Shown here piece by piece: positions 15,087 through 19,123 of a DNA stretch of 36,722 nucleotides. Where the stretch lies: assembly GCA_016214005.1 (NCBI GenBank), contig JACRPK010000013.1, forward strand, positions 1 through 36,722, read 5' to 3'. The stretch is from Candidatus Wolfebacteria bacterium. Lineage in GTDB: Bacteria > Patescibacteriota > Minisyncoccia > UBA6257 > UBA9933. Positions within the stretch are counted from its first letter, which is position 1; every line of letters begins with the position of its first letter. A program made the position numbers and the translations under genes. The notes under the pieces were generated by a model that searched no databases, was not told the origin of the DNA, and was given only the letters and a program-made list of their open reading frames with translations.

Positions 15087-17198
<2,112 letters not shown>

Positions 17199-17313: not shown

Positions 17314-17357
17314 AAACCTTAAAACATTTTTTTTGAAGATTTAAAGAGGATTACATA

Positions 17358-17389
17358 ATGACATTTTATGCGACCGCGCAACTTGTCAT
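17358..17389 (+). repeat. Left 32-nt inverted repeat of the Cas2-like unit
   Basis: atgacattttatgcgaccgcgcaacttgtcat. 29/32 identical to the reverse complement of 18039-18070. Internal dyads ATGACA...TGTCAT and TGCG-accg-CGCA. Confidence 0.95.
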
Positions 17390-17963
17390 TAATAAATATT
17401 TTTTATATCATTATTTTATGAGCTTATCTAATATTTTATTAGCGCTTTTAACCAATTATTCCGGTGGCTATAAGACGATGGGTCAAAGATTAAGGACGGT
17501 AACATCCACTTATCCTTTTCCATTGAATTATAAAAAATATATTTTAACCCAAGATAAAGTAATTGATAAAATTAAAGAAATTAAAGAGCAAACATTGAGA
17601 AGAACATTATCGCGCTTGAAGAAGAGGGGATTGATTGAGAATAAAAATAACATTTGGAAAATTACTCAAGAAGGAAGAAATTATTTAAAAGAAAAATCTT
17701 TTTTAATTGCCCCTCATTTTGGATATTTAAAAATAAAAAATACAAAAAAAGATATGATAGTTATTTTTGATATTCCAGAAATTAGAAAAAAACAAAGAAA
17801 TTGGCTAAGAAAAAACTTAACAGCATTAGGTTTTATAATGTTGCAGGAAAGTGTTTGGTTTGGTCCATCTCCGTTGCCAAAAGAATTCATTGAATATTTG
17901 AATGAAACAAATCTTTTGCAATATTTAAAATTTTTTAAAGTTGCCGAGGATGATATTATTTAA
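17358..17963 (+). CDS. PaaX-like winged-HTH protein with C-terminal Cas2-like domain
   Basis: wHTH-like TLRRTLSRLKKRGLIENKNNIWKITQEGRNYLKE, then Cas2/PaaX-C-like KDMIVIFDIPEIRKKQRNWLRKNLTALGFIMLQESVWFGPSPLPKEF. Alternative start ATG 17418. Confidence 0.8.
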   Translation: MTFYATAQLVINKYFLYHYFMSLSNILLALLTNYSGGYKTMGQRLRTVTSTYPFPLNYKKYILTQDKVIDKIKEIKEQTLRRTLSRLKKRGLIENKNNIWKITQEGRNYLKEKSFLIAPHFGYLKIKNTKKDMIVIFDIPEIRKKQRNWLRKNLTALGFIMLQESVWFGPSPLPKEFIEYLNETNLLQYLKFFKVAEDDII

Positions 17964-18038
17964 TTTTGAATTTTAATTTATTAATTTAGTTATTAATTAA
18001 GAGTTTTAAAAGATTTTTATATAATAGTTTTAATAATG

Positions 18039-18070
18039 ATGACAAGTTATGTGGTCGCATAAAATGTCAT
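18039..18070 (-). repeat. Right 32-nt inverted repeat of the Cas2-like unit
   Basis: atgacaagttatgtggtcgcataaaatgtcat. Reverse complement atgacattttatgcgaccacataacttgtcat matches the left copy at 29/32. Confidence 0.95.
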
Positions 18071-18121
18071 CATTTAAAATTGGAACATAGTTTGTTATTA
18101 TTTTTATATAAATTATGAATT

Positions 18122-19123
18122 ATGAAAGATATAAAAAATAAAATTATTTTTTCCGCGGCGCAGCCGAGCGGGAATCTTCATTTGGGCAATTATTTGGGAG
18201 CCATAAAGCAGTGGATTGATTTGCAGAATAATTATAAAAGTATTTTTTCTATTGTTGATTATCACGCTATAACCATTTATCAAGAGCCGCAAAAACTTCG
18301 CGAAAAAATTTTAGAAACAGCGATGATTTATTTGGCGGCCGGTATTGATCCGAAAAAATCAATAATTTTTGTCCAGTCTGATGTTCGCGAGCATACTGAA
18401 TTGGCCTGGATTTTAAATACGATTTCAAAAATTTCAGAGCTTGAATTGATGACTCAATATAAAGATAAGGTGAAAAAACTCCGCAGCAATGTGAGTGTCG
18501 GCCTTTTTGATTATCCGGTTTTAATGGCAGCCGATATTTTGCTTTACAAAACCGATTTTGTGCCGGTTGGCGAAGATCAAAAACAGCATATTGAATTTGC
18601 AAGAATGCTTGCTCGAAGATTTAATAATTTATACGGCGAAATTTTTATTGAGCCGAAAGAAATAATTATAAAAGAAGGCGCGCGCATTATGGGACTTGAT
18701 GATCCGGAAAAGAAAATGTCAAAATCAGCCGAAAATCAAAATAATTATATTGCGCTTATTGACGAGCCAAGTTTAATAAAAGAAAAAATAAAAAAAGCAG
18801 TGACTGATTCCGGAAAAGAAATTGTTTATGATCTTGAAAAGAAAAAAGGCATTGCCAATCTTTTGACGATTTATTCATTGGTAAGCAGCAAAACAATTAA
18901 ACAGCTTGAAAAAGAATACAAGGGGAAAAATTACGGCGAATTTAAAAAAGATTTGGGCGAAGCGATTGTTTATTTTTTAGATCCGCTTCAGAAAAATTTG
19001 AAAAAGCTCAAAGAAAATCCGGCTAATGTAAAAAAAATTTTAAAAAACGGAGCGGAACAAGCAAAAATAATCGCTTCAAAAAATCTGGAAGAAGCTAAAA
19101 ATAAAATAGGAATTAATTATTAA
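18122..19123 (+). CDS. trpS: Tryptophanyl-tRNA synthetase
   Basis: FSAAQPSGNLHLGNYLGAIKQW (HIGH-type) and KKMSKSAENQNNYIAL (KMSKS). Confidence 0.96.
   Translation: MKDIKNKIIFSAAQPSGNLHLGNYLGAIKQWIDLQNNYKSIFSIVDYHAITIYQEPQKLREKILETAMIYLAAGIDPKKSIIFVQSDVREHTELAWILNTISKISELELMTQYKDKVKKLRSNVSVGLFDYPVLMAADILLYKTDFVPVGEDQKQHIEFARMLARRFNNLYGEIFIEPKEIIIKEGARIMGLDDPEKKMSKSAENQNNYIALIDEPSLIKEKIKKAVTDSGKEIVYDLEKKKGIANLLTIYSLVSSKTIKQLEKEYKGKNYGEFKKDLGEAIVYFLDPLQKNLKKLKENPANVKKILKNGAEQAKIIASKNLEEAKNKIGINY

Follow-up and report, generated by a model that had tools for sequence, protein, structure and literature searches.

A Cas2-like winged-helix protein family of Patescibacteria flanked by gene-specific palindromes: a possible counterpart of RAYT/REP partnerships

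The window, by which we mean the whole stretch of DNA analysed, comprises 36,722 nucleotides (positions 1-36,722 of the forward strand of contig JACRPK010000013.1, assembly GCA_016214005.1) from the 639-kb genome of a Candidatus Wolfebacteria bacterium. Between ligA and trpS it carries a small unit in which two palindromic repeats enclose a single gene. The features of the locus are as follows.

15099-17198, forward strand: ligA, left neighbour of the unit, conserved in four genomes
17351-17394, no strand: left palindrome, core CGACCG, outer arms ATGACA/TGTCAT at 17358-17389; the pair is single-copy in the genome
17418-17963, forward strand: gene of the winged-helix plus Cas2-like (PaaX_M) family, encoding 181 aa from the start that homologues indicate
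18034-18077, no strand: right palindrome, centre TGGTCG, outer arms ATGACA/TGTCAT at 18039-18070, inverted relative to the left one
18122-19123, forward strand: trpS, right neighbour of the unit; of the four genomes that share the ligA site, this one alone has trpS there
19532 and 19857: gatC and gatA, downstream of trpS

An earlier note, made from the letters of the window, had reported near-identical 32-nt inverted repeats that bracket one gene between ligA and trpS. On direct reading, 17358-17389 and the reverse complement of 18039-18070 are indeed identical at 29 of 32 positions, and a repeat search lengthens the pair to 44-nt arms (84% complementary), which form the longest inverted pair in the region; only one gene lies between them, as had been said. 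An in-frame ATG at 17358, inside the left palindrome, is a possible upstream start of the ORF, but nearly all close homologues begin at the Met equivalent to 17418, which places both repeats outside the gene. The note proposed terminal repeats of the unit, and here its picture had to be changed: each window repeat is itself an imperfect palindrome (ATGACA, spacer, core, spacer, TGTCAT), and across the family the two palindromes are direct repeats in some units and inverted ones in others, which is not the case for usual terminal inverted repeats. The window pair is inverted and the pairs at L005, L084 and L204 are near-perfect direct repeats. Folding of the two window palindromes as single-stranded DNA gave z = -3.7 and -8.0 against shuffles. 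An 18-nt piece of the repeat occurs exactly twice in the window (0.04 copies expected from shuffles). In the 639-kb genome the 18-nt piece has no further copy with 3 mismatches allowed, and a relaxed palindromic pattern found no solitary palindromes there. Also, the 20 neighbouring proteins that we checked include no cas1 product and no transposase, and no CRISPR array was seen near them, in agreement with the note; no Rfam family matches the window stretch.

The window protein consists of a winged helix and a PaaX_M Cas2-like domain (PaaX_M E = 4e-15), and searches of Pfam, NCBIfam and PHROGs returned PaaX_M, Cas2 and winged-helix matches only. Its predicted structure (mean pLDDT 85) has E. 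coli PaaX (8a39) as the top structural match and Cas2 proteins next, all with modest E-values. The domain and structural matches uphold the description of a minimal unit with a Cas2-like/PaaX-like protein. It may be noted that the protein passes the NCBIfam Cas2 cut-off (32 against 24.5 bits, the model covering residues 113-147), so that automatic annotation may call it Cas2; many of the lone Cas2 genes annotated in Patescibacteria may in fact belong to this family. PaaX_M is present in all 29 aligned members and the NCBIfam Cas2 model matches 19 of them (E up to 0.001). Invariant in the 29 sequences are G71, G86, F117, D118, P120, E121, R127, L130, R131, L134, Q143, S145, W147 and P154, which in the Cas2-like domain gives the motifs FD-x-PE, R, R and Q-x-S-x-W. 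D118, the conserved strand-1 Asp of Cas2, is thus kept throughout; neither of two PaaX proteins compared, from E. coli and from a Rhodococcus, has it or Q143, and in the E. coli protein most of the other invariant residues of the family are missing as well. Homologues were found in 110 of 200 related genomes, with up to 13 per genome, and in 120 of 380 genomes of an even sample of Patescibacteria. In viral and phage collections no relative was found, and the plasmid collection gave only Rhodococcus PaaX regulators.

To describe the repeats across the family we searched without bias for the two segments before and after the gene that match each other best, and 28 of the first 30 homologues have a matched pair of 20-47-nt repeats centred on CGATCG, CGACCG or CGGTCG. 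Palindromes with a CGRYCG core lie on both sides of the gene in 63 of 92 non-redundant homologues and on at least one side in 75, and 10 of 12 re-examined misses (same order) turned out to have pairs that are weaker and quasi-palindromic, again with this type of core. More distant classes have CGGCCG or CGATAG centres, and some members lack a clear palindrome. At the same loci, both-sided palindromes were found around none of 374 unrelated ORFs away from the family as opposed to 59 of 86 family genes; 11 'far' control matches proved to be redundant copies of family members, which had dropped out of the family set at de-duplication. Chance repeats were rejected on this control. An assembly artefact was rejected since the same pattern is seen in many independent genomes, a methylation site since core variants lack GATC, and a terminator pair since the palindromes shown have no T-run. 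The median distance is 44 bp from the left palindrome centre to the start and 43 bp from the stop to the right palindrome. In 38 of 69 cases the right-hand palindrome lies between convergent genes, so the repeats are more than the promoter operators which the earlier note had considered. No common sequence was found outside the palindromes over 63 pairs, nor any GTAG-type tag.

On dividing the palindromes by position, the core C-G pairs are constant in 63 of 63 pairs. The outer pairs (10-16 positions away from the centre) agree between the two ends of the unit in 392 of 418 comparisons, whereas the spacer pairs (positions 4-9) are identical at both ends in 273 of 378, broken at one end in 68 and changed on both strands with pairing kept in 27. 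Therefore the outer arms, matched at both ends while the spacers vary, are the gene-specific label. Protein distance follows outer-arm distance (Mantel r = 0.24, p = 0.0005, values in which some effects of host relatedness may remain) and shows no significant correlation with the innermost palindrome positions. One Jorgensenbacteria genome has five paralogues with five different palindromes, which means that the label belongs to the gene and not to the genome. With the counts of matched pairs given above and arms that co-vary with the protein, the expectation that each homologue would have its own cognate repeat pair was borne out. Quasipalindrome template switching is an established mechanism able to give symmetrical arm changes, and the spacer symmetry could come partly from template switching at the palindromes.

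Comparison of related genomes showed units both missing and retained, where context genes are simple ORF calls. Two units of G018 are absent from G009, whose flanks are contiguous at ~85% identity, and one of these interrupts a closely spaced iscU-nifU-type junction (genes named by eye). G059 and G076 lack a unit that G103 has, giving three polymorphic sites between related species in all. The whole-unit presence and absence that the earlier note had looked to relatives for is thus found, the units being present or absent whole, with both palindromes. Neither of the empty G009 sites has a palindrome, and the inserted stretches are ~75-110 bp longer than palindrome-to-palindrome. As in the inspection by eye before, the polymorphic sites gave no clear target-site duplication; what seemed a 15-bp overlap at one of the G009 sites vanished once the sequences were aligned. 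Outgroups of the iscU site do not share its gene order and give no polarity between gain and loss. The empty site for the G103 unit on contig 19 of G059 (L218) contains a different, MITE-like insert of ~120 bp with inverted ends AATCCCGTTAGAAACG...CGTTTCTAACGGGAT. As regards retention, one unit lies at the same place in all four species of genus g2, and the site behind ligA is common to G000, G015, G004 and the NZBZ01 genome. All four ligA-site units have both palindromes, so that homologues in syntenic positions keep their flanking repeats, and each pair has been rebuilt on a new arm common to its two ends: ATGACA, TTAACA, TCAACA and GTACAC. No unit stands behind ligA in G012 and G021. The ligA-site unit of the window is old. 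The closest copies within one genome reach a per-genome maximum of 33-56% identity, and hence no recent transposition was caught, although identical copies may be collapsed since the genomes are mostly metagenome assemblies.

Palindromes of the family type also occur away from the genes. On contig 1 of G012 (277 kb), 18 of the 35 strongest palindromes have a CGATCG centre; two units account for 4 of these, the remaining 14 being solitary. Among the solitary ones, 12 match the three resident units, which have three different palindromes, and 2 match none. In same-strand gaps, 10 of 12 solitary palindromes of G012 lie closer to the preceding stop than to the next start. Copies of one G012 palindrome type often have a one-sided extension, GGTTATCCACA, which contains the DnaA-box-like TTATCCACA; extended palindromes of contig 1 are found, for example, at 86762, 112612, 131848, 138567, 220180 and 220920 (L159-L172). 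In genus g2 one solitary type is present at non-orthologous sites in three species, namely behind trpS, before a PHP gene near recA, and behind smc, where it adjoins a palindrome of the second resident type. Between G020 and G021 two solitary palindromes lie at orthologous positions with symmetric differences on both arms, and another is missing from the sister species; the smc-rpsP site and a second solitary site of this pair lie in repeat-rich intergenic DNA with no clean empty site. The likeness to RAYT/REP suggested in the earlier note therefore stands in part, as solitary palindromes are dispersed in G012 and genus g2 and there are none in the window genome. G020 and G021 also have many other dispersed intergenic repeats, of the TGTCATCCCGAG...GCGAAG type (L126, L134, L138), with up to 141 matches for one 10-kb query. 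In G021 two family-type palindromes lie around a HAD-like nucleotidase gene (HAD by eye; contig 3, 210153-210908, L132:2996-3751), which may be a composite unit or one with a passenger, or simply two solitary palindromes that happen to lie there.

Taken as a whole, gene and repeats have the look of a partnership not described before, one that may be spreading itself. A search of the open-access literature, with preprints outside its scope, found no Cas2/PaaX-palindrome system in Patescibacteria. Judged from sequence comparison, the protein most likely recognises its own palindromes and drives their spread or turnover, and with moderate confidence we favour the reading that in the unit a small DNA-binding protein and its own palindromes form a self-contained partnership, which works on RAYT/REP logic with a Cas2-like protein. 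Association, specificity, co-divergence, dispersal and presence/absence are the steps of this reading that rest on the data. For the remainder, a dimer would use its winged helices to read the outer arms, and its Cas2-like domain would act at the palindrome, perhaps in its hairpin or cruciform form during replication; the palindromes, and occasionally the whole unit, might thereby be copied or moved. The window copy would then be an old, settled member without solitary palindromes. We put forward more tentatively, as somewhat short of probable on the present genome comparisons, that the family may form a new class of palindrome-mobilising enzyme, in which a Cas2 fold without Cas1 would recognise and process cognate CGRYCG palindromes and in this way spread its own gene, as well as solitary palindromes, through the genomes of Patescibacteria. 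Against mobility it may be said that there are no near-identical copies within a genome, that the inserted stretches overrun the palindromes and show no clear duplication, that gain and loss are not told apart at the polymorphic sites, that the window genome is devoid of solitary palindromes, that several units stay at fixed sites across genera or species as if vertically inherited, and that the closest fold is that of PaaX, a repressor.

The main rival is a non-mobile regulator with paired operators. Here a stably inherited PaaX-type autoregulator would bind as a dimer to operators on both sides of its gene, possibly with looping, and the solitary palindromes would be operators of its regulon. 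The best fold match to E. coli PaaX, PaaX_M in 29 of 29 members, the left palindrome centre with its median distance of 44 bp to the start, and units that several genera or species retain in one place are all in its favour. It also fits the co-evolution of arms and protein, yet it fits poorly the right palindrome, which is conserved too and so often lies between convergent genes, and the solitary copies, which shift between non-orthologous sites in sister species and in same-strand gaps of G012 are mostly closer to the end of the gene before them than to the start of the gene after. Moreover, presence or absence concerns the entire unit, both palindromes included, and the spacers differ between ends yet often stay paired. 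For these reasons we consider the autoregulator rather unlikely, and less so than the two readings that follow.

A homing-type nuclease that cuts the cognate palindrome, with the flanking copies arising by repair-driven spread and not by transposase-like strand transfer, would suit the Cas2-like FD-x-PE motif kept by the family and missing in whole or part from the E. coli and Rhodococcus PaaX proteins. The match of 19 of 29 members to the NCBIfam Cas2 model and the pairs that are often near-identical direct repeats point the same way. This is nevertheless improbable in our estimate, as the two empty G009 sites have no palindrome as a possible target and a fold like that of Cas2 does not by itself prove activity. 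Least probable are immobile, protein-bound structural elements of RNA or DNA (terminators, mRNA-end hairpins or chromosome-organising sites) that owe their symmetry to template-switch mutation. The hairpins are strong, the symmetrical change at orthologous solitary palindromes can come from quasipalindrome template switching, and the DnaA-box-like TTATCCACA lies beside several palindromes of one subfamily. However, gene-specific arms that diverge together with the protein need a recognition role, the window stretch has no Rfam match, and the palindromes shown lack the T-run typical of an intrinsic terminator.

If the reading as a palindrome-mobilising enzyme is true, the RAYT/REP way of life would have been invented independently, and the Cas2 fold would have a possible non-CRISPR role in DNA mobility. 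Patescibacteria are a very large and mostly uncultured part of the bacteria. The family is found in about a third of the genomes sampled, where automatic pipelines probably often label it CRISPR Cas2, and it would be a hidden genome-shaping system there. The family offers a direct test of whether the Cas2 fold acts on DNA without Cas1, and its natural series of protein-site pairs could serve to read out a DNA-recognition code. Also, lone Cas2 calls in Patescibacteria genomes are not evidence for CRISPR.

Of the known systems, a conventional insertion sequence differs in that the palindromes here occur in either orientation, no clear duplication accompanies them and copies within a genome are at most 56% identical. 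HIP1 of cyanobacteria, GCGATCGC, shares the CGATCG centre and is an 8-mer that occurs in high numbers and is linked to methyltransferases (PMC4390886), whereas the centre of the family lies within palindromes of 32-50 nt with gene-specific arms, and its variants CGACCG, CGGCCG and CGATAG break GATC. With Cas2 (TIGR01573, PF09827) the window protein shares the fold and passes the NCBIfam cut-off, but only the first part of the Cas2 model is matched, a winged helix is added and no cas1 or CRISPR array was seen nearby. PaaX (PF07848/PF20803, TIGR02277) has the same order of winged helix and Cas2-like PaaX_M and gives the top structural match (8a39). Unlike PaaX, the window protein has 181 aa and no PaaX C-terminal part (292-316 aa in the two PaaX compared), scores 25.7 bits with TIGR02277 against a cut-off of 264.55, and of the PaaX domains has only PaaX_M above cut-off. 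No catabolic operon adjoins the window unit, which is flanked by its pair of palindromes, and the family keeps FD-x-PE and Q-x-S-x-W, which E. coli PaaX is missing. The signature of RAYT/REP consists of cognate flanking palindromes, co-evolution, dispersed solitary copies and a low-copy diverged gene (PMC2817692). Compared with the RAYT/REP/BIME/REPIN systems (PMC2817692, PMC3116915), the family protein, a winged helix plus a Cas2-like domain, is unrelated to the IS200/IS605-type Y1/HUH transposase; its palindromes are CGRYCG-centred with no general tag, one subfamily having GGTTATCCACA; solitary copies number about ten and not hundreds, the pairs are direct or inverted, and the hosts are Patescibacteria. 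Like those systems, it has a single low-copy, diverged gene with two flanking palindromes that co-evolve with the protein, in some genomes cognate solitary palindromes in intergenic DNA, and different families side by side.
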